DNA of 34,735 bases from Thiobacillus denitrificans (GTDB taxonomy: Bacteria > Pseudomonadota > Gammaproteobacteria > Burkholderiales > Thiobacillaceae). Positions 8,144 to 19,732 of the stretch are shown here, in pieces. The translations under genes were made by a program, and so were the position numbers. Position 1 is the first letter of the stretch. Every line of letters starts with the position of its first letter. The notes under the pieces are model-generated. The model made no database searches. It saw only the letters and a list, made by a program, of their open reading frames with translations, and was not told the DNA's origin. The stretch covers positions 1-34,735 of the forward strand of contig DYFW01000014.1 in assembly GCA_020725005.1 (NCBI GenBank), given 5' to 3'.

Positions 8144-9127
8144 ATGCAGGTATTCATCACGGGCGGCGCAGGCTTCATCGGTTCGCATCTGGCGGCATAC
8201 CACCTCGATCGCGGCGACCGGGTTTACGTGGTCGACAACCTCAGCACCGGGTCGCTCGCCAACATCGAGGCCTTGCGCGCCCACCCGGGATTCCGCTTCG
8301 CCGAGGCCGACATGCTGCACTGGGGCGGCCTCGGCGAGGCTGTCGCCTCGGCCGACCGCATCTACCACCTGGCTGCCGTCACCGGCGTGACGAAGGCGCT
8401 GGAAGACCCCGTCGCGCTCATGACGGCCAACATGAACGGCACCGAAAAACTGCTGCGCGCGATCCACCACGGCGGCAGGCATCCCGAGGTGATCATCGCC
8501 TCGACGTCCGAAGTCTACGGCGCCAATGCCCGCGCCAGCTTCGCCGAGACCGACGCCATCGTGCTGCCTTCGGCCGGACCGCTGCGCTGGGCCAGCGCGG
8601 CCGCCAGGCTCGCCGACGAATTCCTCGCCTTGTCCTACGCGCGCAAGCACGGCCTGCACATCGTCGTCGCGCGCCTGTTCCACACCATCGGCCCCAACCA
8701 GGCCGGCCGCCACGACATGGTGGTGCCGCGCTTCATCCATGCCGCGCTGCACAATCTGCCGCTCACCGTGTACGGCGAAGGCACGCAGACGCGCTCGTTC
8801 TGCGACGTGCGCGACACCGTCGTGGCGCTCGACCGGCTCGCAGCCACCCCGGAAGCGTGGGGCGAAGTGATCAACGTCGGCAATGACCAGGAAATCGCGA
8901 TCCGCAACCTGGCAGAGCTGATCGTGCAACGCACCCACAGCCCCTCGCCAATACACTTCATTTCCTGCCAGGAAGCCTACGGCGAAGAATTCGAGGACGT
9001 CGCCCACCGCCGGCCGGAGCTCAACAAACTGCGGGCCCTGACAGGATTCACACCGGAATGGACATTGATCGATACGCTAGAAGACCTGCTCGAGAGAAAA
9101 ACCGCAAATGGTTTACATGTGGTCTAA
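8144..9127 (+). CDS. NAD-dependent epimerase/dehydratase-like protein (extended SDR) lacking the catalytic Tyr/Lys
   Basis: This 327-residue protein has the extended short-chain dehydrogenase fold seen in UDP-sugar epimerases and UDP-glucuronate decarboxylases. It shows the nucleotide loop TGGAGFIGSH (6-15), the acidic VVDNLSTG (29-36), HLAAVTGV (75-82), STSEVYG (120-126), RLFHTIGPNQ (177-186), VPRFIHAAL and VYGEGTQTRSFCDVRD (209-224). GGAAAGGTG seven bases before the ATG supports the start. Odd point: where relatives have RW-S-Y-x3-K-x2-DEF, this protein reads RWASAAARLADEF, with S151 at the Tyr and R155 at the Lys position. The cofactor pocket looks intact but classical SDR chemistry should be lost. 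No other polysaccharide gene adjoins it. Confidence 0.85.
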   Translation: MQVFITGGAGFIGSHLAAYHLDRGDRVYVVDNLSTGSLANIEALRAHPGFRFAEADMLHWGGLGEAVASADRIYHLAAVTGVTKALEDPVALMTANMNGTEKLLRAIHHGGRHPEVIIASTSEVYGANARASFAETDAIVLPSAGPLRWASAAARLADEFLALSYARKHGLHIVVARLFHTIGPNQAGRHDMVVPRFIHAALHNLPLTVYGEGTQTRSFCDVRDTVVALDRLAATPEAWGEVINVGNDQEIAIRNLAELIVQRTHSPSPIHFISCQEAYGEEFEDVAHRRPELNKLRALTGFTPEWTLIDTLEDLLERKTANGLHVV

Positions 9128-9428
9128 TAGCCTGTCGGCCTGCCCCAACCCGCATAAGACCAATAACCGTAACGCCCATCATCCCGCGCCGCTGCATTTC
9201 GCACAAGCAGAAAACCTTGCTGATCAATCGGTTAAGGCCCATTTCGCACTCTCCGTTGTTCAGGATCCGATGCAGAATGCCGATGATGCATCCTTAGTCA
9301 GTGCAGTAAGCGCGCTAAGCCAGAATCCGGATCTCAACGTCATTACCGAAGTGGTCGAAGCCGAAATGCAGCGCGATGGCCTGCGCAAACTTAATCCAGG
9401 GCCCACCTCAGCCGGCCCAAACCGCTAA
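9108..9428 (+). CDS. Possible small hypothetical protein
   Basis: A 106-codon open frame starts inside the last 20 bases of the epimerase-like gene and ends 62 bases before the REC-PAS gene. I do not recognise it. A shorter version from ATG 9270 (52 residues, beginning MQNADDASLV) has AGGA about five bases upstream and looks more protein-like: acidic, helical, with NPDLNVITEVVEAEMQRDG. The first half may be non-coding. It marks the left edge of the less GC-rich cassette. No domain, signal peptide or membrane segment is visible. Confidence 0.4.
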   Translation: MVYMWSNSLSACPNPHKTNNRNAHHPAPLHFAQAENLADQSVKAHFALSVVQDPMQNADDASLVSAVSALSQNPDLNVITEVVEAEMQRDGLRKLNPGPTSAGPNR

Positions 9429-9490: not shown

Positions 9491-10315
9491 ATGGAAAGAA
9501 CCCTGCTGTTGGTCGATGATGAAGAAAATATCACGTCATCGCTGAGCCGAATGCTGCGCCGCGATGGCTATCGCATTCTGCGCGCAAGCAGCGGACAGGA
9601 AGGACTGAAAATACTCGCGAAAAACCCGGTAGGCGTCATCGTCTCGGACCAGCGCATGCCGGAAATGAGCGGTACTGAATTTCTCAGCCGGGTGCGAGAA
9701 CGCCACCCGGAGACTATACGCATCGTGCTGTCAGGCTACACCGACCTGAACTCGGTAACCGAAGCCATCAATCGTGGGGCGATATACAAATTTCTCACAA
9801 AACCGTGGGAAGACGACCAACTGCGTGCCCATATTGAAGAAGCCTTCCAAGTCTATGAGATGCGCATGGAAAATATCCGGTTGACACAACAGCTCAAGGT
9901 CGCCAACAACGAACTGGGCCGGATCAATGCAGCCCTCGAAATACAGGGCCAGGAAGGTGCGCAGCAAGCCATGCGTAACCTGCATGTGACTCGCTTGGCG
10001 CAGGAAATTCTAGAACACCTCCCGCTCGCCGTGGTCGGCATAGACAATGAAGGCCGCATCGCCCTGGCCAACCGTCGGGCACAGGAATGGTTTGGCTTAG
10101 TGGGTTCCTTGATCGGAGAGGAGGCGGCGTCGTGCATCCCTTCGGATTTTCTTATCTACAGCACAGCAAACATTCCCGGAGCGTCGCGTGCAAACCCGTT
10201 CGCCCTCGGCGACGGACGTCTCGGACGCTATTGGCACTACACGCTGGGTGATGTTTCGAATGTGTGTGGAACCGTACTGGTAGCAGAAATGAAACAACAG
10301 GATGATTATACATGA
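9491..10315 (+). CDS. Response regulator: REC domain plus PAS-like domain
   Basis: This 274-residue protein has an intact receiver domain at residues 1-120: acidic pair in LLLVDDEENI, phospho-acceptor D53 in VIVSDQRMP, S81 in VLSGYTD, and K104 in FLTKPWEDD. A coiled region of about 50 residues follows, then a PAS-like fold from ~170 (ILEHLPLAVVGIDNEGRIALANRRAQEWFG). There is no DNA-binding or enzymatic output, so it may act by protein contact or as a ligand-sensing relay. GGAGG eight bases before the ATG is a strong ribosome site. It is the first clear gene of the regulatory cassette; an IS3 element sits 28 bases after its stop and separates it from its presumed kinase partner. Confidence 0.85.
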   Translation: MERTLLLVDDEENITSSLSRMLRRDGYRILRASSGQEGLKILAKNPVGVIVSDQRMPEMSGTEFLSRVRERHPETIRIVLSGYTDLNSVTEAINRGAIYKFLTKPWEDDQLRAHIEEAFQVYEMRMENIRLTQQLKVANNELGRINAALEIQGQEGAQQAMRNLHVTRLAQEILEHLPLAVVGIDNEGRIALANRRAQEWFGLVGSLIGEEAASCIPSDFLIYSTANIPGASRANPFALGDGRLGRYWHYTLGDVSNVCGTVLVAEMKQQDDYT

Positions 10316-10343
10316 TGGGTAGACACTCGTCTGCCAGGCTGCC

Positions 10344-10369
10344 TGAACCGCCCCGGATTTTGAGGAGGC
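10344..10369 (+). repeat. Left terminal inverted repeat of the IS3 element
   Basis: The 26 bases starting TGAACCGCCCCGG and ending GGAGGC match the reverse complement of the right end except at positions 14, 18 and 20. The base before it completes a GCC target duplication copy at 10341-10343. Confidence 0.9.
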
Positions 10370-10393
10370 TCCAACTCTTGAGAAGATGGAGCC

Positions 10394-10717
10394 ATGAAGA
10401 AACCCGTAAAGTATTCCCCCGAAGTCCGCGAACGCGCCGTACGCCTGGTTGGCGAGTGTCGCGCCAGCTATCCATCGCAGTGGGCCGCCATTGAATCGAT
10501 CGCGGCCAAGATCGGCTGCTCGGCGCAAACCCTGCACACATGGGTGCGTCGGCACGAGACCGACACGGGCCAGCGCTCCGGCGTAACCACGGCCGAGGCG
10601 CAACGCGTCAAGGAACTGAAACGCGAGGTCAAGGAGTTGCGCCGAGCCAACGAGATCCTCAAGCTGACGAGCGCGTTTTTCGCCCAGGCGGAGCTCGACC
10701 GCCGTCTCAAGTCCTGA
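10394..10717 (+). CDS. IS3-family transposase OrfA (helix-turn-helix)
   Basis: OrfA (107 residues) is the DNA-end-binding part of an IS3 transposase. It starts [19 protein letters not shown], has a helix-turn-helix region around [20 protein letters not shown] (residues ~36-55), and a leucine-rich coil ending in [22 protein letters not shown]. The reading frame is intact. A TTTTTC run at 10676-10681 inside the conserved FFAQAELD region is a candidate site for the -1 slip that joins OrfA to OrfB in this family. As orfB is broken, the OrfA made here could only bind ends or act as a repressor. Confidence 0.9.
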
Positions 10718-11628
10718 ACGATTTTGTCGACCGGCATCGCGTCGCCTCCGGGGTCGAGCCGATCTGCAAGGCCTTGCAGATCGCCCCGTCGAGCTACCGG
10801 CGCCATGCCGCGCGCCAGCGCGATCCGGCGCTGCGTTGTGCGCGTGCGCAACGCGACGATGTATTGATGCCCGAGATCGAACGCGTCTGGCAGGCCAATC
10901 TTGAGGTCTACGGCGCGGATAAGGTCTGGCGGCAGATGAGGCGCGAAGGCACCGAGGTCGCGCGCTGCACCGTCGAGCGCCTGATGAGCCGCCTGGGATT
11001 GCGCGGCGCGGTGCGCGGCAAGGTCGTGCGCACGACGGTGCCCGACCCCAAACAGCCGTGTCTGCTGGACCGGGTGAATCGCCAGTTCAGGGCGGAGCGC
11101 CCGAACCAGCTCTGGGTCTCGGATTTCACCTACGTCTCGACCTGGCAGGGCTGGCTGTACGTGGCCTTCGTGATCGACGTGTATGCCCGGCACATCGTCG
11201 GCTGACGGGTCAGCCGAACGATGACGACGGACTTCGTGCTCGACGCGCAGGAACAGGCGTTGTACGCCCGCCAACCTGAGCGAGACCGCAGTCTCGTCCA
11301 TCACTCCGACCGGGGTTCGCAGTACGTCAGCATCCGCTACAGTGAGCGCCTGGCCGAGGCGGGTGTCGAACCCTCCGTGGGAAGCAAGGGAGATAGCTAC
11401 GACAACGCCTTGGCCGAGACGATCAACGGACTGTACAAGGCGGAGCTGATCCACCGGCGCGGCCCGTGGAAGACGCGGGAAGCAGTGGAGCTGGCGACGC
11501 TGGAATGGGTGGCGTGGTTCAACCACGTCAGGATGCTCGAACCCATCGGCTATATCCCGCCCGCCGAAGCTGAGGCAAACCACTACCGGCAACTCGCCGA
11601 ACAGGCCGAGTTATCGGCCTGCACTTAA
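10676..11628 (+). pseudogene. IS3-family transposase OrfB (DDE integrase), broken by an in-frame stop
   Basis: The -1 frame relative to orfA encodes the HTH_21 region (YGADKVWRQMRREG) and an rve-type DDE domain. The first Asp is in NQLWVSDFTYVST, the second in HHSDRGSQYVS, and the Glu in YDNALAETINGLYKAE. Between the first and second Asp, codon 11203-11205 is TGA where relatives have Trp (HIVG-W-RVSRTMTTDF). Reading resumes in the same frame, so this is a point nonsense change (TGG to TGA), not a frameshift. The remaining C-terminal part could restart at ATG 11221 but would lack a catalytic residue. The start given is the candidate slip site. Confidence 0.9.
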
Positions 11629-11636
11629 ACCAAATG

Positions 11637-11662
11637 GCCTCCACGAAACCCGGGGCGGTTCA
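11637..11662 (-). repeat. Right terminal inverted repeat of the IS3 element
   Basis: Reading inward from 11662 on the minus strand gives TGAACCGCCCCGGG, matching the left end with three differences in 26. GCC at 11663-11665 is the second copy of the target duplication. Confidence 0.9.
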
Positions 11663-11782
11663 GCCCCACTGCCGCATTCTGGTTGATCTGGGGTCAATTA
11701 TTGCCTTGCCTTGCCGATATACACTTCTGTGGCAGCGTCATGGCCGACAACTGATGCAGGCCCGATAAGACAGCAAACGTAA

Positions 11783-13204
11783 ATGCTTGAGGATATGGCG
11801 GTGGCTATCGACAACTGGAAAAATCCGTCCTGGATCTACGACCTTTACCGGTTGGGCCAGGCAAGCTCACTACGCGAGAATCCTGCGCAGGTTCAACAGC
11901 AAATCCTCAAACACATCGTGCAGTGCATCGGCGCGGATAGCGGATCGCTCGCAGTACGTGCATACGACCAGGACGAATTTGTTCTGGCCGCTGGGATTGG
12001 CCTTCCCGATTCAGCCATTGGCAGTCATATCCGTATGAGGCAGGGCGTGATCGGCTGGGTTGTCGAACATGGCGAGCCCATATTGGTAACGGATGACCCC
12101 AGCAAAGATCCGCGATTCGAGAACTATGTCCCGCGACGGGAGTCATCCACGCCGGGTTCAGCTATCTGCTGGCCCCTGAAACAGGAAACCCAGGTGATCG
12201 GCACGCTCTGCCTTAACCGCATGCCGAAGGCTCCGCCATTTACCGAGGCCGACATGGAACGCGGCAATATGCTGGCCAGCGTTGTGTCTATTGTCATTGA
12301 AAATACGCGCCTGCATCAGGAGCAGACCGCGCGGATCCGGCGCTTGTCGGAGCTCAATCAGCGGCTTGAAGACGCGCAAAGCCAACTGCTCCAATCCGAA
12401 AAAATGGCCTCCATCGGCCAGCTCGCAGCTGGCGTGGCGCATGAGATCAACAATCCAATAGGGTTTGTCTATTCTAATCTGGGGACACTAGAACGCTATG
12501 TGAGTGATCTACTCAGCCTAGTGGATAACTATGAATCTGCCGAGTCCAGTATCAGCGACGCTACTATTCTGGCGAATCTCCAAAACTTGAAACAGAAAAT
12601 AGATCTGGACTATCTACGCGAGGACGCGGTGTCGCTGATGAATGAATCCCGCGATGGCATTACACGGGTCAAGACCATTGTACAGAACCTGAAGGACTTC
12701 TCCCACGTAGATTCCAGCGAAGAGTGGCAGTCGGCCAGTCTTGAGCGCGGGCTGGATAGCACGCTCAACATCGTGTGGAACGAACTCAAGTACAAATGCG
12801 AGGTAAAGAAAGAGTATGGCAACATCCCTGATATCGAATGCGTTCCATCGCAATTAAACCAGGTTTTCATGAACCTTCTGGTGAACGCCGGCCACGCAAT
12901 CGAGGATCGCGGAACTATCACGCTGCGCACGGGCACCGCGGGAGAGCAAGTGTGGGTAGAAGTCGAGGATACCGGCAAAGGCATTGCCCCCGATCACATA
13001 AAGCGAATTTTCGACCCTTTCTTCACGACCAAGCCGGTTGGTAAGGGAACTGGGCTAGGGCTTTCAGTTTCACACGGCATCGTGCAGAAGCACCACGGGA
13101 GAATCGAAGTGAACAGCGAACTCGGGAAGGGGACCCGGTTCCGTGTGTGGCTGCCAATCAGCCAGCAAGAAAAAAATGAAGTCGAATACCAAAGCCATGC
13201 ATGA
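11783..13204 (+). CDS. Soluble GAF-domain sensor histidine kinase
   Basis: This 473-residue kinase has no membrane segment, so it should sense a cytoplasmic signal. A GAF domain spans ~15-175 (IVQCIGADSGSLAVR, GVIGWVVEHGEPILVTD, AICWPLKQETQVIGTLCL). A coil leads to the HisKA region with SEKMASIGQLAAGVAHEINN and phospho-acceptor H220, then a HATPase_c domain: N box near N364/N368 (VFMNLLVNAGHAI), DTGKG (396-400), FDPFFTT and GKGTGLGLSVS. It belongs to the NtrB-like HEINNP group. ATG 11783 lacks a clear ribosome site; ATG 11795 has TGAGG just upstream and may be the true start. Its end overlaps the HD-GYP gene. Confidence 0.92.
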   Translation: MLEDMAVAIDNWKNPSWIYDLYRLGQASSLRENPAQVQQQILKHIVQCIGADSGSLAVRAYDQDEFVLAAGIGLPDSAIGSHIRMRQGVIGWVVEHGEPILVTDDPSKDPRFENYVPRRESSTPGSAICWPLKQETQVIGTLCLNRMPKAPPFTEADMERGNMLASVVSIVIENTRLHQEQTARIRRLSELNQRLEDAQSQLLQSEKMASIGQLAAGVAHEINNPIGFVYSNLGTLERYVSDLLSLVDNYESAESSISDATILANLQNLKQKIDLDYLREDAVSLMNESRDGITRVKTIVQNLKDFSHVDSSEEWQSASLERGLDSTLNIVWNELKYKCEVKKEYGNIPDIECVPSQLNQVFMNLLVNAGHAIEDRGTITLRTGTAGEQVWVEVEDTGKGIAPDHIKRIFDPFFTTKPVGKGTGLGLSVSHGIVQKHHGRIEVNSELGKGTRFRVWLPISQQEKNEVEYQSHA

Positions 13205-14543
13205 CGCCGCACAAAAAACCGAAGCGATACACCAAGAACCGGGACCATTTACCTTACTTTGTGTTGATGATGAAGCCAATATCCTGTCGTCGCTGAAACG
13301 TCTTTTCCGTCCGCACGGCTATCGCATTTTCACCGCCGAAAGTGGAAAACAAGGGCTGGACATCCTGGAACAGGAAACAGTGGATTTGGTGATTTCCGAC
13401 ATGCGCATGCCGGAAATGAATGGCGCGCAATTTCTGGAGCGGGCGAGAGAGAAATGGCCGGACACCGTGCGCATCCTGCTTACCGGCTACGCAGAAATTA
13501 GCGCAGCTATCGATGCCATCAACAAGGGCCAGATCTATCAATACATATCCAAGCCGTGGGAAGACGCCGATATCCTGTTGCTGGTCAAGCAGGCGCTTGA
13601 ACGCAAGACGCTAGAGCGGGAGAAAAAGCGTCTGGAGGCGCTGACACAACGGCAGAACGAAGAACTTAAGGAACTCAACACCAGCCTGGAACAGAAAGTA
13701 CAGGACCGCACGGCGGAACTGCGCCAGACCATGGACTTTCTCAATCTGGCTCACGAAAAACTGAAAAAAGGATTCCTGACTTCCATTCAGGTTTTCTCAA
13801 ACCTGATCGAACTGCGTGAAGGAGCACTTGCCGGGCACTCCCGGCGCGTTGCGGATCTGGCCCACAAAATCGCGAAACAAATGGGAATGTCTGTACTGGA
13901 AGCGCAGGATGTACTGGTTGCCGGGCTCCTTCATGACATTGGGAAACTTGGCCTGCCGGACGATTTGCTTAAAAAACCGTTCAGCTCGTTAACATTAGAG
14001 CAGCGATCCGAGGTCATCAAACACCCGGCGCGCGGGCAAGCTGCCTTGATGGCACTGGAGCAGTTGAAGGGAGCGGCCAGGCTGATACGCGGACATCATG
14101 AACGCTTCGACGGGATGGGTTATCCCGACGGTCTAGCAGGGGAGGACATCCCATTGGGTGCGCGCATTCTGGCACTGGCCAATGACTATGACTCGCTGCA
14201 AATAGGCTCCATGGAAGACAGGCGATTCACCGTCGATGACGCTGCCGCCTTCATCAAAAGAAATTGTGGGAAATACTACGATCCGCAAGTAGTTGATGCG
14301 TTCTTCCTGGTAACAGGCCTGAAGGCTTCGCCGCCGCCCAGCTCCGGGACCCGGGAACTGGCTGTGCGAGTCGCTGATCTCGAGCCAGGCATGATTTTGG
14401 CGCGCGATATCATGACAGATGACGGAATGCTCTTGCTGTCGAAAGACTATCTGCTAGACGAAGATTTGATTTCGCAGCTAGCCAACTTCGAAGAAAATGA
14501 TGACAAACCGCTACGCATATTCATTAAAGCTGGACGGAGATAA
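13176..14543 (+). CDS. Response regulator with HD-GYP cyclic-di-GMP phosphodiesterase output
   Basis: This RpfG-like protein (455 residues from ATG 13176) pairs a receiver domain with an HD-GYP domain that hydrolyses cyclic-di-GMP. The receiver has LLCVDDEANI, phospho-acceptor D75 in VISDMRMP, T103 and K126 in YISKPWED. A long coil (140-195) follows. HD-GYP residues are present: H221, HD at 253-254 in LLHDIGKLG, HHERFDGMGYPDG (307-319) with GYP at 315-317, and LANDYDSL. A small C-terminal extension (GMILARDIMTDDGMLLL) resembles that of other HD-GYP regulators. A start within the kinase gene gives a 29-base overlap; GTG 13143 is open but unlikely. All catalytic residues I can check are kept, so it should be active. 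Confidence 0.92.
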   Translation: MKSNTKAMHDAAQKTEAIHQEPGPFTLLCVDDEANILSSLKRLFRPHGYRIFTAESGKQGLDILEQETVDLVISDMRMPEMNGAQFLERAREKWPDTVRILLTGYAEISAAIDAINKGQIYQYISKPWEDADILLLVKQALERKTLEREKKRLEALTQRQNEELKELNTSLEQKVQDRTAELRQTMDFLNLAHEKLKKGFLTSIQVFSNLIELREGALAGHSRRVADLAHKIAKQMGMSVLEAQDVLVAGLLHDIGKLGLPDDLLKKPFSSLTLEQRSEVIKHPARGQAALMALEQLKGAARLIRGHHERFDGMGYPDGLAGEDIPLGARILALANDYDSLQIGSMEDRRFTVDDAAAFIKRNCGKYYDPQVVDAFFLVTGLKASPPPSSGTRELAVRVADLEPGMILARDIMTDDGMLLLSKDYLLDEDLISQLANFEENDDKPLRIFIKAGRR

Positions 14544-14545
14544 GC

Positions 14546-15097
14546 ATGCACCGAATCATGCTGGTGGATGACGAAACAAGTGTTCTCAATGCGCTGCGCC
14601 GTACGATCGGGGAATGCGTTACTGACGGCTTCGATTCTTTCAGGGTAAGCGTCGAAACATTCGAGCAGCCAGAGGCTGCCTTGCACAGGGCACAGGATGC
14701 AAGGTTCGACCTGGTGCTGTCCGATTACCGCATGCCTGGTATGGACGGCGTGGCATTTCTTAAATCTTTGCGCGCCATGCAGCCAAACGCGATGCGCTTG
14801 ATTCTGAGCGGCTATGCGGATTTGAGCGCGCTTGTCAGCGCCATCAATGATGCGCAGATATACCGTTTCATAAACAAACCCTGGCAGGACTATGAGCTAA
14901 AGGCGTCGATCGTACAGGCTCTCGCATTCCAGAATTTATTATTGGAGAACCAGCGTCTGGCGGATCTTGTCCGTGTGCAGCACGGCAAGCTGACCCGCCA
15001 GGAGATGGCGCTACGCCGACTCGAGGAGGAGACTCCAGGTATTACCCGGGTCAATTGGGGGCCTGATGGCTCAATCCTGCTAGACGACGAGGAATAA
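14546..15097 (+). CDS. Response regulator: REC domain with short C-terminal tail
   Basis: The 183-residue protein has a complete receiver: MLVDDETSV, phospho-acceptor D60 in LVLSDYRMPGMDG, S88 in ILSGYAD and K111 in FINKPWQD. The rest (~125-183) is a charged coiled stretch ending in an acidic tail (LLDDEE), with no output domain that I recognise. It starts two bases after the HD-GYP stop, with GGAG about 8 bases before the ATG. It could be a phosphate sink, a relay or an adaptor for the GTPase or the ATPase downstream; this is inference from position. Confidence 0.88.
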   Translation: MHRIMLVDDETSVLNALRRTIGECVTDGFDSFRVSVETFEQPEAALHRAQDARFDLVLSDYRMPGMDGVAFLKSLRAMQPNAMRLILSGYADLSALVSAINDAQIYRFINKPWQDYELKASIVQALAFQNLLLENQRLADLVRVQHGKLTRQEMALRRLEEETPGITRVNWGPDGSILLDDEE

Positions 15098-15101
15098 GCG
15101 A

Positions 15102-15257
15102 GTGACTCAATCGACTACGGTACAGAACACCGCCCTGACCCTGGTTTGCAGCGACTCTGCGACCGCTCAGCAAATGGTCGGATTGGACATATCGAAGCGA
15201 AAACTCGACCGGCCGGACAGGCTGTCTAGAAGTTTTCTCTTGGCGGCCAGGAAGTAG
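15102..15257 (+). CDS. Possible 51-residue protein with GTG start
   Basis: The only gap in this tightly packed part of the operon (169 bases) is almost filled by an open frame starting GTG at 15102, four bases after the preceding stop codon, and ending 9 bases before the GTPase ATG. GAGGA lies about nine bases upstream of the GTG. The product starts VTQSTTVQNTALTLVC and ends basic (RKLDRPDRLSRSFLLAARK). I do not recognise it. It is too short for a roadblock/MglB protein. It may be real, or a decayed remnant. Confidence 0.35.
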   Translation: MTQSTTVQNTALTLVCSDSATAQQMVGLDISKRKLDRPDRLSRSFLLAARK

Positions 15258-15266
15258 CACAGCGCC

Positions 15267-15914
15267 ATGGCAGAGTACGATGAAATCAACCGCAAGCTCA
15301 TGCTTAAGCTGGTGTATTACGGGCCGGCGATGAGCGGTAAAACAACGAACCTGATGCGCCTGCACGACTTTCTCGCACCGGAACTCAAGGGCGATATTCT
15401 TACGCTCGAGACCCAAAATGACCGCACTCTATTCTTTGATCTTCTGCCGCTTGGATTTAAGACGCCGACGGGATGGTTGATCAAGCTCAAACTATTCACG
15501 GTACCAGGGCAAGTCGTGCATGACGCGACACGTAAGGCCGTCCTTTCCCGTGCAGACGGGCTGGTATTCGTGGCAGACTCACAACAAAACCAGAGTGTAA
15601 ACAACTCGGAGTCGTTCCAGAACTTAGAGGAAAATGCGCGTCGCGTTGGGCTGGACTTCGACAGCTTGCCCTTGGTGGTGCAGTTTAACAAACGTGATTT
15701 GCCGCGAATCCTATCGGAGGAAGAAATTCGAGCACGCTGGAAACAGGCGCCGTGGCCACTGACCTTTGCCTCGGCGCTCACCGGGGCGGGTGTGAAGGAA
15801 ACCTTCGTACGCCTTCTGGAACAGGTCTACCCCCAGATTGATAAACAATTTTCACTGACCGAGAAGCATGGCATGAGCACTGCCACCTTCGTGAAGGCGG
15901 TTGCCGGTATCTGA
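15267..15914 (+). CDS. MglA-like small Ras-family GTPase
   Basis: This 215-residue GTPase resembles MglA, the bacterial polarity GTPase that controls gliding and type IV pilus position in Myxococcus. Motifs: P-loop YGPAMSGKTTN (18-28, K25 T26), TLETQNDRTLFFDLLPL (46-62), switch II with VPGQ (79-82) instead of DxxG as is typical for MglA, FVADSQQNQ (101-109), base-specificity FNKRDLP (140-146) and ASALTG (168-173). No membrane anchor is seen. It lies between a REC gene and a kinase gene, three bases before the latter. No MglB/roadblock GAP gene is in the window. A regulatory role on the neighbouring motor ATPase is inference. Confidence 0.9.
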   Translation: MAEYDEINRKLMLKLVYYGPAMSGKTTNLMRLHDFLAPELKGDILTLETQNDRTLFFDLLPLGFKTPTGWLIKLKLFTVPGQVVHDATRKAVLSRADGLVFVADSQQNQSVNNSESFQNLEENARRVGLDFDSLPLVVQFNKRDLPRILSEEEIRARWKQAPWPLTFASALTGAGVKETFVRLLEQVYPQIDKQFSLTEKHGMSTATFVKAVAGI

Positions 15915-15917
15915 GCG

Positions 15918-17138
15918 ATGGAGATACTGTCAGGCAGCTTTGATCGTGAATTCACCCTAGGCGAGCTTCTCGGCGGGGTGCCGCGTGAACGGTTGGGCGC
16001 GGCACTGGCAGCCCTCCTCGGACCCGAATTCCGCCTGTCGTCGAATCTTGGCGAAGTGGTCGCGGGGACAAGCGGCGAGCTTGTGGGTGCGGAGCGGGTG
16101 GCGGTGCGTCACGATCTCGAGCCCTTGGGGTGGCTGGAGGCGCTAGCCACGGAAGACAAGGTTCGTGCCGCGGCCACATTGCTGGAAATGTTGCTGCATC
16201 AGGGCGCGCGCTATCTCATGGCGTCGGAACTCCACATCGAAGTGGTCAATTCGGATTATGCGGCGTTGCAGGATCAGTATGCCGCGCTGCAGGCATCCGA
16301 GGCGCGTTATAAGGAGCTTTCACAGCAACTGGAGGAACGGGTCAGGGCGCAGGTTAGTGTAATCGAAACGACCCAACGTCAGCTCTATCAGGCGGAAAAA
16401 ATGGCCTCCATAGGACAGTTGGCTGCAGGTGTCGCGCATGAGATCAACAATCCTATTGGGTTCATCCGCAGCAATCTGAACACAGCCCACGCTTATATCA
16501 AGAAACTTGAGGAAATTGCACCGGCAATACGCGCCACAACAGCGCTATCCGAGATATGGAAACGGACCGATATAGATTTCATGCTGGAGGATTTCCATGC
16601 GCTGTTGCAGGAAAGCATTAGCGGTGCAGACCGGGTGGCACGCATCGTGACAGATCTCAAGGGATTCTCCAATATCGACCAGTCCGAGGAAAAATACGTT
16701 GATCTGAATGACAACTTGCGTTCAGTCTGCAATGTCGCCCACGCTCAGATCAATCCGTGTGCTGAAGTCATCATGGACCTAGGCGAACTGCCACTGCTAC
16801 GCTGCCATGTGGGCCGGCTTAACCAGGCATTTCTCGCCCTGCTGCTCAACGCGGCACAGGCAATGAATTCGCGGGGAGAGATTCGCATCCGCAGCCGTCA
16901 TGAGGGAAACGAAGTCCGCATCGAGTTCACCGACAACGGCCACGGCATCGCGCAGGACGTGCTAGAGCGTATTTTCGACCCGTTCTTCAGTACCCGAGAT
17001 GTGGGCAAAGGGACAGGATTGGGGCTCACGGTCAGCCGCGACATCGTTGCAGCCCATGGCGGACGCATCGAGGTACGAAGCGAGCCCGGGGCCGGCAGCA
17101 CGTTTACCGTTGTGCTGCCGGCGAGCGACTGTACTTAA
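15918..17138 (+). CDS. Soluble sensor histidine kinase with an unassigned N-terminal domain
   Basis: The 406-residue kinase has a ~105-residue N-terminal region (MEILSGSFDREFTLGELL ... LLHQGARYLMASELH) that I cannot assign, then a coiled coil (~112-158) into a HisKA region with AEKMASIGQLAAGVAHEINN and phospho-acceptor H174. The HATPase_c domain follows (FLALLLNAAQAM, DNGHGI, FDPFFST, GKGTGLGLTVS). The H-box is almost identical to that of the GAF kinase at 11783-13204, so the two are probably paralogues with swapped sensor regions. No membrane segment is present. Its start is three bases after the GTPase stop, suggesting that the N-terminal domain might read the GTPase; that is inference. Confidence 0.9.
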   Translation: MEILSGSFDREFTLGELLGGVPRERLGAALAALLGPEFRLSSNLGEVVAGTSGELVGAERVAVRHDLEPLGWLEALATEDKVRAAATLLEMLLHQGARYLMASELHIEVVNSDYAALQDQYAALQASEARYKELSQQLEERVRAQVSVIETTQRQLYQAEKMASIGQLAAGVAHEINNPIGFIRSNLNTAHAYIKKLEEIAPAIRATTALSEIWKRTDIDFMLEDFHALLQESISGADRVARIVTDLKGFSNIDQSEEKYVDLNDNLRSVCNVAHAQINPCAEVIMDLGELPLLRCHVGRLNQAFLALLLNAAQAMNSRGEIRIRSRHEGNEVRIEFTDNGHGIAQDVLERIFDPFFSTRDVGKGTGLGLTVSRDIVAAHGGRIEVRSEPGAGSTFTVVLPASDCT

Positions 17139-17188
17139 AGATAGACGGCCAATTGAACAGCCGTCATGCGTCTAATCATCCCGAAGCC

Positions 17189-19417
17189 ATGAGCCGATAC
17201 TCCGCATTGTTTACCGGCAACGCAAACGATTCGCCGCCATCCGAAAAGGCTCCTACTCCCTACCGCATCCTGCTCGTAGACGACGAACAGAATGTGCTGC
17301 GCGCCTTGCAACGTGTGTTCCGTCAGGAAAACTATCAGGTCATGACGGCCAGCAGCGGGCAGGAAGCACTCGAACTACTGCGCCGCGAGACTTTCCACCT
17401 GATGATTTCAGACTACATGATGCCAGTCATGAATGGCGGCGAGCTGCTGCGCCAGGCCAAGGAACTGCATCCTGAACTGATTCGTATCATGCTGACAGGA
17501 CACGCAGATACGGGAGCCGTTATGGCCGCCATCAATGAGGGGGCCGTCTACAAGTTCATCCTCAAGCCCTGGAACGATGACGATTTGCGTGTCACGGTCG
17601 CTCTCGCGCTCGAGCAATACGAACTGATTCGCAAGAACAAAGCGCTCAGGCAGGAGAACGCTCTCAAGTCAAAGGAAATCTCGGCCCTGGCGAAATTGGC
17701 GGTAACCAACCGCAGCCAACTCGCAATCATGTTAAGCAACCGCAATCTGCTGAATAGCCAGCAGGTGCAAGAACTGCACCGCTTGCAACAGCAGCGCAAG
17801 GAGCCGCTAATCAAGATCCTGCTCGAACGTGACTGGGTGTCTGAGAGCGCGATTCGCGATATTCTGCGCAAGGATCTGCTGATTGAAGAGGTTTCCTTAC
17901 CGGAAATTCAGGTCGACCCGGCCGTATCCGCGCTCATCCCGCAGAGTTTTTGCATGCGACAACTCGTGGTGCCTTTGCGTATCGATGGCCGGCGCTTGCT
18001 TCTGGCCATGGCGGATCCGCTTGACGCGGGACTACTCGACGATCTGCGCTTCGCATCGGGACTGGAAGTCCAGCCGGTGATGGCTAATGTGTCTGCCATT
18101 CAGAGCAAGCTCGCCGACGTTTATGGTACCCGTGAGACGGTGGATTTCAGTGAGCTGGAAACCATCGTCGGGGGAGTCGATCCCTATGAGGGCATTGAGA
18201 TTGTCATCGACGATGAAGCGGAGGCGTCGTTGGATGAGTTGCTGCGCGGAACGGAAGAGCCGCCAGCGATTCGGTTGGTCAACGCAATCATCCTGGAGGC
18301 GATCCGACTCGGTGCCAGCGATATACATATTCAGCCGCGCACCAAGAGCGTGGTGGTGCGTTTGCGCATTGACGGCGTATTGACGGACAAGATTCATATT
18401 CCGCATCACTTGCACCAATCGTTGGTGTCCCGGCTGAAGATCATGTCCGAACTCGACATCAGCGAGCGCCGTCGGCCACAGGATGGGCGCATTACCGTCA
18501 AGTCCCCACTTCGTATGGTCGATCTGCGCATTTCGACGCTGCCAACCATCAATGGCGAGAAAATTGTGATGCGTATTTTGGATCGCAATTCCGCCATTCT
18601 GAACCTGGATACGCTTGGGTTTTCCGATCAGGATCTGCCTCGGATTCTCAACCTGGTAGACAAGCCGCAGGGGATCATTCTGACTACAGGCCCTACCGGA
18701 AGCGGCAAAACCACAACGCTTTATGCACTATTACAGCACAACGCAACATCTGCCAAGAACTACGTGACCATAGAAGATCCCGTCGAATATTACATGGACA
18801 TTGCGGGGCAGGTTCTGATCAAGGAAAAGATCGGGCTGTCGTTCCCCGTGGTGCTACGCTCCATCCTGCGTCAGGATCCGGACGTCGTGCTGATAGGGGA
18901 AATTCGCGATTTAGAAACGGCGGAAGTGGCCTTCCATGCAGCACTCACCGGACATCTGGTTTACTCTACATTGCATACGAATTCGGCCATTGCGACCCTC
19001 GCTCGTCTGTTCGACCTTGGGCTAAAGCCATACGTCATAGCAGCAGCACTGGAAGGTATCATCGCGCAGCGCCTGGTACGCAAGATTTGCGAACATTGCC
19101 GTGAGCCTGTGCAGCCTACGCCGGAACAACGTCATCGGCTGAGCGGCCTGTTCGCCGCCGGCCAATTGCCCACCTACCACGGCAAAGGCTGTAGCCAATG
19201 CCACAATAGCGGTTATCGTGGCCGCATCGGCCTGTACGAAATACTCATCCCGGACGAGGAATTACGGCATTTGATAACCAGCAACAGCAGTATCCGGGAC
19301 ATCACCCAGATGGCGAAATCGAAAGGCATGAAAACTCTGCTCGATGATGCCCGTGAAAAAGTCGCGCATGGTGTGACTTCCATGGACGAAATTCTACGGG
19401 TGCTCGGACCACAGTGA
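17189..19417 (+). CDS. Receiver domain fused to a PilB/GspE-type secretion/pilus ATPase
   Basis: This ~742-residue protein joins a receiver domain (24-145) to a complete type II secretion/type IV pilus assembly ATPase. Receiver: LLVDDEQNV, phospho-acceptor D75 in MISDYMMP, T103, K127 in FILKPWND. A coil and an MshEN/GspE_N-like region (~175-312) follow. ATPase: ASDIHIQP (377-384), Walker A GPTGSGKTTT (501-510), Asp box TIEDPVEY, Walker B RQDPDVVLIGEIRD with E571, His box STLHTN with H596, and a CxxC pair (C634/C637, C668/C671) for zinc. The start is uncertain: TTG 17153 would add 12 residues and neither start has a clear ribosome site. Phosphorylation-dependent control of the motor is implied by the fusion. 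No pilin, PilC or PilQ gene is present here. Confidence 0.9.
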   Translation: MSRYSALFTGNANDSPPSEKAPTPYRILLVDDEQNVLRALQRVFRQENYQVMTASSGQEALELLRRETFHLMISDYMMPVMNGGELLRQAKELHPELIRIMLTGHADTGAVMAAINEGAVYKFILKPWNDDDLRVTVALALEQYELIRKNKALRQENALKSKEISALAKLAVTNRSQLAIMLSNRNLLNSQQVQELHRLQQQRKEPLIKILLERDWVSESAIRDILRKDLLIEEVSLPEIQVDPAVSALIPQSFCMRQLVVPLRIDGRRLLLAMADPLDAGLLDDLRFASGLEVQPVMANVSAIQSKLADVYGTRETVDFSELETIVGGVDPYEGIEIVIDDEAEASLDELLRGTEEPPAIRLVNAIILEAIRLGASDIHIQPRTKSVVVRLRIDGVLTDKIHIPHHLHQSLVSRLKIMSELDISERRRPQDGRITVKSPLRMVDLRISTLPTINGEKIVMRILDRNSAILNLDTLGFSDQDLPRILNLVDKPQGIILTTGPTGSGKTTTLYALLQHNATSAKNYVTIEDPVEYYMDIAGQVLIKEKIGLSFPVVLRSILRQDPDVVLIGEIRDLETAEVAFHAALTGHLVYSTLHTNSAIATLARLFDLGLKPYVIAAALEGIIAQRLVRKICEHCREPVQPTPEQRHRLSGLFAAGQLPTYHGKGCSQCHNSGYRGRIGLYEILIPDEELRHLITSNSSIRDITQMAKSKGMKTLLDDAREKVAHGVTSMDEILRVLGPQ

Positions 19418-19647
19418 CCTGATCGAATAAACAAGCGTACCGCAGCGTTTCTGCTCTCCCTGAACGCGGCGGCTCAGATGCCGAGTGCCGGCTACGGGCT
19501 GGCACTAACCGTCATGCCGACGCAAGCTTCGTGTCGTAGAGCATTTGCGATTCTTCCACTCCTGCACAAACACAGCCATGCCCTGTCTCAGTGGACAGGC
19601 GGCGCACACCTGCCAGCGTGCGACAAGGCCGCGCGCGTTGCTTGAAC
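19418..19647. other. Intergenic region between the ATPase gene and tRNA-Leu, with hairpins
   Basis: No gene is seen. Two inverted repeats occur: AGTGCC...GGCACT at about 19479-19505 (9-base stem with one wobble pair), and CCTGTC-tcagtg-GACAGG around 19573-19590. Neither has a U-run, so they are only possible weak or Rho-assisted ends for the plus-strand cassette and the minus-strand tRNA. Confidence 0.4.
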
Positions 19648-19732
19648 TGGTGCCCAGGGGGGGACTCGAACCCCCACGCCTTGCGGCGGCGGATTTTGAA
19701 TCCGCTGCGTCTACCGATTCCGCCACCTGGGC
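19648..19732 (-). tRNA. tRNA-Leu (anticodon CAA)
   Basis: The minus strand gives an 85-base tRNA with the CCA end encoded (19648-19650). Acceptor stem GCCCAGG pairs with CCTGGGC. The anticodon arm GCGGA-TTCAAAA-TCCGC gives CAA, reading UUG. The long variable arm typical of tRNA-Leu and the T loop GTTCGAGTC are present. Its 3' end faces the regulatory cassette. Confidence 0.96.

Follow-up and report, generated by a model that had tools for sequence, protein, structure and literature searches.

Three adjacent genes, encoding an MglA-like GTPase (E), a soluble histidine kinase (protein F) and a receiver-bearing motor ATPase (G), almost certainly constitute one signalling unit. The trio stays together across several bacterial groups and probably acts as a single circuit for switching a surface motor on and off. 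The genes lie on the plus strand of the window, the whole 34,735-nt stretch of Thiobacillus denitrificans DNA that was analyzed (contig DYFW01000014.1, GCA_020725005.1; genome handle G000), with the Ras-family GTPase E at 15267..15914 (215 aa), protein F at 15918..17138 (406 aa; PF02518, PF00512) and the receiver-MshEN-T2SSE ATPase G at 17189..19417 (742 aa; PF00072, PF05157, PF00437). They are the core of a seven-gene module, A to G. The listed TTG start of G at 17153 is too early, because the relatives begin at MSRY. A preliminary description had taken a system of this composition to be possibly undescribed, and literature searches aimed at the gene set likewise found no published description of E-F-G; a search of papers for NCBIfam model numbers gave no hit.

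Conservation was followed in two overlapping samples. The first consists of 80 loci from named genomes, the best 80 of 364 relatives, outside which more distant MglA relatives fall. Two subsets of it were used, A5 (74 of the 80 loci, with L038, L040, L047, L050 and L099 left out by script and L086 by hand) and A6 (37 hand-chosen loci). The second samples the class evenly with 370 genomes, at thresholds of more than 330 bits for E, an E-value of at most 1e-170 for G and at most 1e-18 for the N-terminal domain of protein F. Genome G385 of this sample is that of locus L078, and G434 that of L076.

A kinase lies directly downstream of E in all of the best 80 of 364 loci, and starts at most 70 bases past the E stop codon in 76 of them. 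The receiver-ATPase then follows in all 76 of these best 80 loci in which the contig continues, within 1.8 kb in 73; G is more distant from E-F in L034, L090 and L099. In the class sample of 370, the genomes with E, with G and with the N-terminal domain of protein F are the same 8, and the genes are adjacent there; at these thresholds, none of the 370 has a full E or a full G apart or alone. The chance that two such sets of 8 coincide is about 1 in 8e15, if kinship is ignored. Weak matches to E in 15 of the 370 genomes count against the best explanation, and in two more genomes only remnants of the three genes are left. The distances of E, F and G are correlated (r 0.85-0.89; Mantel test for E-G, 0/999). 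Co-occurrence in other genomes had been named beforehand as the result on which the module idea would stand or fall, and the core E-F-G came through it. Such co-occurrence demonstrates a unit, not how E-F-G works. That the genes are neighbours by shared descent only, with no joint function, is hardly credible: related genomes do retain neighbours for a time, but the trio occurs in several bacterial groups with differing flanks, stands alone in Hahella and Desulfatibacillum, leaves remnants of all three genes together, and is present as a set in 3 of 117 family genomes.

All module genes are on the plus strand with short gaps or overlaps, apart from the insertion between A and B and a 169-base gap between D and E, as stated in the preliminary description, which had however counted eight genes instead of seven. 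The remaining distances are 1467 bases for A-B, -8 for B-C, 2 for C-D, 3 for E-F and 50 for F-G. Gene A (9491..10315, 274 aa) encodes a receiver-PAS response regulator with PF00072 and PF13188 above cut-off, B (11783..13204, 473 aa) a soluble GAF-histidine kinase (PF01590/PF13185 and PF02518), C (13197, or 13176, to 14543) a receiver-HD-GYP c-di-GMP phosphodiesterase of the NosR family (NF053512, PF13487), and D (14546..15097, 183 aa) a receiver-only protein with a C-terminal tail (PF00072). The insertion at 10343..11663 (plus strand), which we take to belong to the IS3 family, has imperfect terminal inverted repeats, with ends placed both by eye and by computation. It carries open reading frames at 10394-10717, 10540-11205 and 11221-11628, the second transposase frame being interrupted by an in-frame stop, and comparison of loci revealed its absence between A and B in two relatives.

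DNA similarity to two relatives (G001 and G103) sets in at 9494-9500 and ends at 19417-19418. Against G103, the window has 11 kb without similarity downstream and only about 0.37 kb upstream; against G001, there are 8.8 kb without similarity upstream and only 0.14 kb downstream. Because these boundaries coincide with the ends of the module, the gene set is more than a group of chance neighbours. All four receivers in the window (A, C, D and G) contain the Asp-Asp pair, the phospho-Asp, the Ser/Thr and the Lys, and a 19-residue hydropathy scan revealed no membrane-like stretch in any module protein (maximum 1.39, versus 2.26 for a protein in the same window that is presumably SecD-like). The earlier claims of intact receivers and of two soluble kinases therefore both held.

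The idea of one conserved set had to be narrowed. Conservation is strictest for E-F-G. Among the 61 loci whose upstream sequence extends over 4.5 kb or more, 6 show no B, C or D (at least 40% identity). Relatives of A-C or A-D persist beside E-F-G remnants in two genomes. A-D are a partner set that is looser and paralogous, a putative second input added by most loci. The kinase cores of B and protein F share 47% identity, and identities among the four receivers range over 35-48%, a similarity that makes cross-talk possible. Clustering of neighbouring genes lumped receivers and kinases, and little beyond A-G emerged from it. C scored 599.1 bits with NF053512 (NosR family; cut-off 400). The HD-GYP motif comprises HD, HP and HHExxDGxGYP, and the translation of C retains these residues. 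Both kinases were below the cut-off (450) of the T2SS_HK model NF038348, B with 371.6 and protein F with 285.7 bits.

A PDB search matched E to M. xanthus MglA (5ymx) with an E-value of 6e-45. Group 1 MglA proteins are defined by an arginine beside the G2 threonine, TVPGQ in G3 and [NT]KxD in G4 (PMC4316618). In E, GKT, R53, T54, T78, P80, G81, Q82 and NKxD (N141, K142, D144) are present in 81 of 81 rows, with V79 outside the count, and by these residues E belongs to Group 1 of Wuichet 2014. The same survey counts 390 of 449 MglA proteins, over all groups, as coupled to MglB within four genes, and 59 as uncoupled (PMC4316618). E differs from most MglA proteins in having no MglB coupled within four genes: no Roadblock open reading frame was found in the best 80 of 364 loci. 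Genome-wide searches of 50 of the 80 module genomes identified no Roadblock protein in 34 and one elsewhere in the genome in 16; the window's own genome has none.

Protein F retains the H box His and the N box Asn in 79 of 79 rows (a count omitting L040 and L047). Its first 108 codons (15918..16241, plus strand) encode an FDRE..ELL motif and a Roadblock/GAF-like domain without any Pfam match. Among the best 80 of 364 loci, this domain was found in protein F in all 80 and nowhere else in them; it is tied to E. A PDB profile search with it returned only two unrelated weak rows. Structural comparison of the models is compatible with a Roadblock-like as well as a GAF fold. A longer homologue (L097) has the predicted order alpha-beta-beta-alpha-beta-beta-beta-alpha, which is that of Roadblock/MglB. 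In VIA, this homologue matched MglB 6hjm_P with Z 11.2 (3.8 Å over 119), in a tie with GAF 4g3k_A, also at Z 11.2, and 36 of the 50 listed rows were Roadblock, Rag, Ragulator or EGO proteins, as judged from their titles. Foldseek ranked a CodY-type GAF first. The proteobacterial version, including that of the window, is without the second helix of the longer version; the window's shorter version peaked at Z 7.4, in a list headed by GAF-type rows, with MglB at 6.2. Run with 18 sequences drawn from 27 loci, and with a subset of 5, hhalign scored 0.8 to 8.2% against Roadblock or MglB sets and 0.6 to 3.9% against GAF, values that did not separate the two folds.

These comparisons bear on the reading in which the domain, as a small GAF-like sensor of metabolites, makes no contact with E, so that E and F would meet only at the motor. 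The GAF structures at the top of the Foldseek ranking, the tie in VIA and the true GAF domain of B speak for such a sensor. We nevertheless consider it rather unlikely, given that the domain keeps company with E in a way not expected of a generic sensor and that the order of elements and the majority of VIA rows favour Roadblock.

The receiver residues of G are kept in 77 of 77 rows and the Walker A Lys in all 70 rows reaching it; Walker A/B, His box and zinc cysteines are kept. G scored below the cut-offs of the PilB equivalog TIGR02538 (569 bits; cut-off 675.65), the GspE equivalog TIGR02533 (560 bits; 630.25) and TfpB NF053534 (450.9 bits; 850), and the tree separates it, as a clade of its own, from the 12 other ATPases included. 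The c-di-GMP receptor motif of MshEN consists of two RLGxx...Q motifs (PMC5013675). Only 1 of the 8 key Arg/Gly/Gln positions is present in G of the window, and 0 to 5 of 8 across 77 rows. Direct input of c-di-GMP to G was rejected on the grounds of this loss, even though a few rows keep up to 5 positions, and the earlier proposal that c-di-GMP converges directly on the motor ATPase is thus unsupported.

No match to PilC/GspF or PilD genes (platform, prepilin peptidase) was found in the best 80 of 364 loci. Among 21 distinct chosen module genomes (22 handles, G001 and G124 being the same genome), 16 carry a canonical PilB above cut-off besides G, which rules out G as the housekeeping PilB for most genomes. 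The exceptions are G157, G164, G118, G154 and the window's own genome; T2SSF pieces near the starts of contigs C84 and C215 of the latter may point to an assembly gap. T2SSF platform proteins are present in all 21. G might instead drive a type II-like secretion or MSHA-like system, or no longer assemble any fibre, and the nearly equal PilB and GspE scores, both below cut-off, together with the separate clade are compatible with this. The conserved catalytic elements of the ATPase, the platform proteins in every genome and the canonical PilB in most make it improbable.

We lean slightly towards a model in which E, F and G form a unit where E is read by F and phosphate passes to G on an accessory motor, with A-D as a second input. 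E would be an MglA-type GTP switch with its own arginine finger, MglB not being adjacent. Histidine kinases are dimers, and the N-termini of protein F, with their FDRE..ELL motif and Roadblock-like domain, would therefore provide a paired platform for E, similar to an MglB dimer. GTP loading of E would toggle protein F between kinase and phosphatase activity, and phosphate from F would reach the receiver of G. This would switch G, an accessory PilB-type motor working on a platform encoded elsewhere, most likely that of the type IV pilus with housekeeping function. Other signals may be sensed by B, C and D, which would lower c-di-GMP alongside, bypassing the MshEN domain of G. We infer the E-F contact, the direction of the signal, the phosphotransfer from F to G and the machine that is driven. 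A relay from GTP to histidine to aspartate to motor within three genes, with a Roadblock domain fused to the kinase and the motor itself phosphorylated, is conceivable at somewhat under even chances.

The signal might also run the other way. Protein F would then be a sensor, through its N-terminus and coiled coil, and a GAP or GEF for E; in its GTP form E would place or activate G, in the manner of MglA on Myxococcus pili, the receiver serving as a second lock. The full set of hydrolysis residues in E fits this order; the conservon kinase has been placed upstream and the GTPase downstream (PMC13343842), and in M. xanthus, MglA acts through SgmX to activate pili (PMC7668184). However, the phospho-acceptor sits on the motor itself in every row, and conservons are described without a response regulator (PMC4316618). 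We judge this reversal unlikely, though less so than the alternatives discussed for the N-terminal domain and for the machine.

E-F-G bears on the link between bacterial Ras-like GTPases and two-component signalling, and on the switching of pilus motors. If the preferred model is true, it provides a direct phospho-switch on a pilus-type motor in several bacterial groups, and a role for one lineage of MglB-less MglA, proteins that the 2014 survey had set aside as a class (PMC4316618). With GTPase, kinase and motor-borne phospho-acceptor adjacent, the set can be cloned and tested as a whole, and members in named isolates, including Methylotuvimicrobium buryatense 5G, Hahella ganghwensis and Marinobacter oulmenensis, make it accessible to experiment. 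E and the N-terminus of protein F are a defined pair for a first structure. New here are the E-tied N-terminal domain on protein F, the separate clade of G and the absence of MglB and platform genes from the 80 loci; the preliminary description had missed the domain and both absences.

Conservons of Actinomycetota (CvnA-D) likewise unite a histidine kinase, a Roadblock protein and an MglA-family GTPase (PMC4316618; PMC13343842). Their GTPase belongs to Group 2, with GTPGQ, no G2 arginine and a separate CvnB, whereas E-F-G has Group 1-type residues and no separate Roadblock open reading frame. In the present set, a soluble kinase carries the predicted Roadblock-like domain as a fusion, there are receivers, the line ends in a motor ATPase and the carriers belong to other phyla. 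The MglA-MglB-RomR system of M. xanthus shares the Group 1 residues, a receiver protein (RomR) and the targeting of type IV pili (PMC4316618). Two orphan MglA proteins, SofG and the MglA of Bdellovibrio, were compared alongside it (PMC3441718, PMC7668184, PMC3983030). In all of these systems, MglB is a separate protein or uncoupled. To our knowledge, the receiver is not on the motor in the Myxococcus system.

NosP-NosK-NosR is related through C, which exceeds the NosR cut-off, and through NosK, which is without a membrane segment and has an HEINN box as in B and protein F (PMC12570481). C retains the HD-GYP residues, whereas NosR of B. pseudomallei does not; the single FIST (NosP) match in the window's genome is on contig C285 and not on the module contig, so the genes do not make up a NosP-NosK-NosR operon. 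TfpB of Acinetobacter baylyi, a second pilus extension motor, is PilB-like and separate from canonical PilB, which is also present in 15 of 16 species (PMC8213720). G differs from it in scoring below the TfpB cut-off, in having a receiver and in being accompanied by E and F. With MshE and GspE, G shares the MshEN and T2SSE domains; compared with these, it has lost the c-di-GMP-binding motif, as described for XpsE (PMC5013675), and has added a receiver.

The window comprises one entire contig (C228) of a draft genome of 3.26 Mb. Its region 9491-19417 holds seven plus-strand genes that we call A to G; an insertion sequence separates the first two. Pfam and NCBIfam matches identified a receiver-PAS protein (A, 9491-10315), a GAF-histidine kinase (B, 11783-13204), a receiver-HD-GYP protein (C, 13197-14543), a receiver (D, 14546-15097), an MglA-like GTPase (E, 15267-15914), a histidine kinase (F, 15918-17138) and a receiver-MshEN-T2SSE ATPase (G, 17189-19417, the start being set from relatives). 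Recomputed on A-G, the gene gaps, the receiver residues and the lack of membrane segments in the kinases were all as the preliminary description had claimed. The insertion (10343-11663), which we take to be IS3-like, has a second transposase frame broken by one in-frame stop. A 106-codon ORF before A (9108-9428) gave no Pfam or NCBIfam match; by eye, its end looks like an EAL-domain tail. The D-E gap is occupied by a short ORF (15102-15257, about 52 codons), and measures 13 bases in genome G103 and 55 in G001. The C-terminal tail of D, PGITRVxWGPxG, is common to the D relative in locus L016.

The preliminary description had proposed one circuit and let the idea depend on co-occurrence of the genes in other genomes, which was found for E, F and G. 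Three E proteins used as queries retrieved 364 relatives from named genomes, the best 80 of which were kept. The kinase match starts at most 1.4 kb after E in all 80 loci, and the called kinase start lies within 70 bases of the E stop in 76; L040 and L047 carry a kinase that is either broken or masked, and the start lies 230 bases on in L086 and 787 in L099. A receiver-ATPase follows downstream in all 76 loci in which the contig continues (L069, L084, L087 and L098, where it ends too early, were left out), within 1.8 kb in 73 and at a greater distance in L034, L090 and L099. According to record titles, these best 80 loci belong mostly to beta- and gammaproteobacteria, with Desulfobacterota, Nitrospirota and single MAGs titled Deferribacteres (L098) and Polarisedimenticolaceae (L042). 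Simple ORF calling placed E-F-G alone, flanked by opposite-strand genes, in Hahella (L074) and Desulfatibacillum (L095). Relatives of B, C and D with at least 40% identity were present in 54, 42 and 39, respectively, of the 61 loci with at least 4.5 kb upstream, and none of the three in 6 of these 61. Near the module, 7 of the 80 loci also encode a protein of about 236 residues with an FHQCxxCPL motif (e.g. L037:14868-15572).

As a control independent of the choice of neighbours, we drew 370 genomes, at least 90% complete, evenly from the class. E (>330 bits), G (E <= 1e-170) and the N-terminal domain of F (E <= 1e-18) exceeded these thresholds in the same 8 of the 370, adjacent each time, with G cut by the contig end in one (G528). 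At least two of the eight, the window's genome aside, are also among the genomes of the 80 loci. Matches to E below 210 bits occurred in 17 further genomes, two of which were examined. In G199, E is divergent and has a gap of 26 residues; a fragment of the F domain (E 0.008) and adjoining relatives of A, B and C are present, and G is absent. G461 carries E split in two, the tail of G alone, and adjoining relatives of A-D. These two loci (L140, L141) hold E-F-G as remnants only and have kept the A-C or A-D relatives. Because the same 8 genomes carry all three core genes and both loci hold remnants, the three occur together and seem to fade together.

Close to home, E is rare. A full-length relative was found in 3 of 117 family genomes, the window's own included (identities of 90 and 73% for the other two), and five more had weak matches only. 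Among the best 80 of the 364 relatives, the closest named one to carry the cluster, L021, is a Thiobacillus MAG. Both family relatives carry the set and lack the insertion at this place; in G001, an HDOD gene occupies its position and a nitrate reductase delta-subunit gene lies upstream. DNA similarity to both sets in where A starts and stops where G ends, within the reach of their contigs, which gives A-G the appearance of a cassette in variable surroundings. In the Hydrogenophilus-titled L016, an HDOD-domain gene (9703-10548) lies between A and B, at the place of the insertion in the window, with nitrate reductase delta, U32 peptidase and SCP2 genes upstream. Directly downstream of the cassette edge in the window is a minus-strand tRNA-Leu (caa) gene (19648-19732), a possible integration site.

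E matches solved MglA structures, which we take to be those from Myxococcus and Thermus, and its P-loop, arginine finger R53, T78, Q82 and NKxD are kept in 81 of 81 rows. Conservation extends to the Asp-Asp, Asp, Thr and Lys of the G receiver (77 of 77), the Walker A Lys of G (all 70 rows reaching that far), its Walker B Glu and His box (69 of 69), and the His, Glu and Asn residues of the H and N boxes of F (77-79 of 79). Distances of E, F and G are parallel over 75 rows, to which shared species history contributes. B and F share 47% identity in their kinase cores, and identities among the four receivers are 35-48%; the cluster probably grew by duplication inside one kinase-receiver family; which kinases and receivers are phosphorylation partners is not readable from sequence.

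Residues 1-108 of F comprise an FDRE..ELL motif and a small domain that matches no Pfam family. In every one of the 80 loci the domain is present in F, and at no other place in these loci; among the 370 genomes, it gave only weak matches outside the eight (G199 and G490). The window's domain, predicted from 75 rows (pLDDT 92.6, pTM 0.66), matched 3w2z (Z 7.4) and 5zoh (Z 7.2) best in VIA, presumably GAF-type photoreceptors, with 5x6v_B (Z 6.7), which we take to be Ragulator, and MglB 3t1r_A (Z 6.2, 2.8 A over 79 residues). A longer version from L097 (pLDDT 89.8, pTM 0.83) was predicted to have the order helix-strand-strand-helix-strand-strand-strand-helix, which is that of Roadblock. Its best VIA matches are the C-terminal part of a Rag-like GTPase (9m28, Z 12.0, 3.1 A over 121), MglB 6hjm_P (Z 11.2, 3.8 A over 119) and the GAF domain 4g3k_A (Z 11.2, 3.1 A over 121). 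By title, 36 of the 50 matches listed are chains of Roadblock, Rag, Ragulator or EGO proteins, including MglB in complex with MglA and MglC. Foldseek ranked a CodY-type GAF first (E 2e-4) and Roadblock-type structures from rank 9 on, and profile comparison singled out neither fold. Neither the 80 loci nor the window's genome yielded a Roadblock protein; of 50 module genomes searched, 34 have none and 16 at least one elsewhere. Given the VIA matches, the element order and the lack of a separate Roadblock protein in the loci, the parsimonious reading, though unproven and with the Foldseek ranking against it, is that F has a Roadblock-like partner built into the kinase. In M. xanthus, an MglB dimer binds one MglA, with contacts added by the N-terminal strand and C-terminal helix (PMC11016934). 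A dimeric F would offer paired Roadblock-like domains, as the MglB dimer does.

G of the window and that of 11 loci fall into one clade (100/99), separate from 12 other ATPases encoded in module genomes, some of which have PilC- and PilD-like neighbours; outside this clade the tree is unsure owing to long branches. G scores below the PilB, GspE and TfpB cut-offs, and the 80 loci gave no match to PilC/GspF or PilD. All 21 distinct module genomes tested encode T2SSF proteins and 16 a canonical PilB. The window's draft genome has T2SSF pieces near the starts of contigs C84 and C215 and no canonical PilB over the cut-off, probably an assembly gap. Both MshEN c-di-GMP motifs are degenerate in G; the proposed direct convergence of c-di-GMP on the motor was therefore not borne out, and C would act on c-di-GMP elsewhere.

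In the literature searched for the set and for MglA without MglB, we found no description of the set, in line with the preliminary description, which knew of no system with this composition; subscription journals and supplements lay outside this literature, so that prior mention is possible. A 2014 survey counted 59 MglA proteins without coupled MglB and deliberately set them aside (PMC4316618). The NCBIfam name of the kinase family, T2SS_HK, suggests that curators had come across a kinase of this type in the neighbourhood of a secretion-type gene. A review on the control of PilB mentions TfpB but, in the passages found, no receiver-fused PilB (PMC11656802). TfpB is a precedent for an accessory motor using a shared platform (PMC8213720), a role in which G may resemble it. 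Every part of the module is of a known kind, and the closest known system is the conservon.
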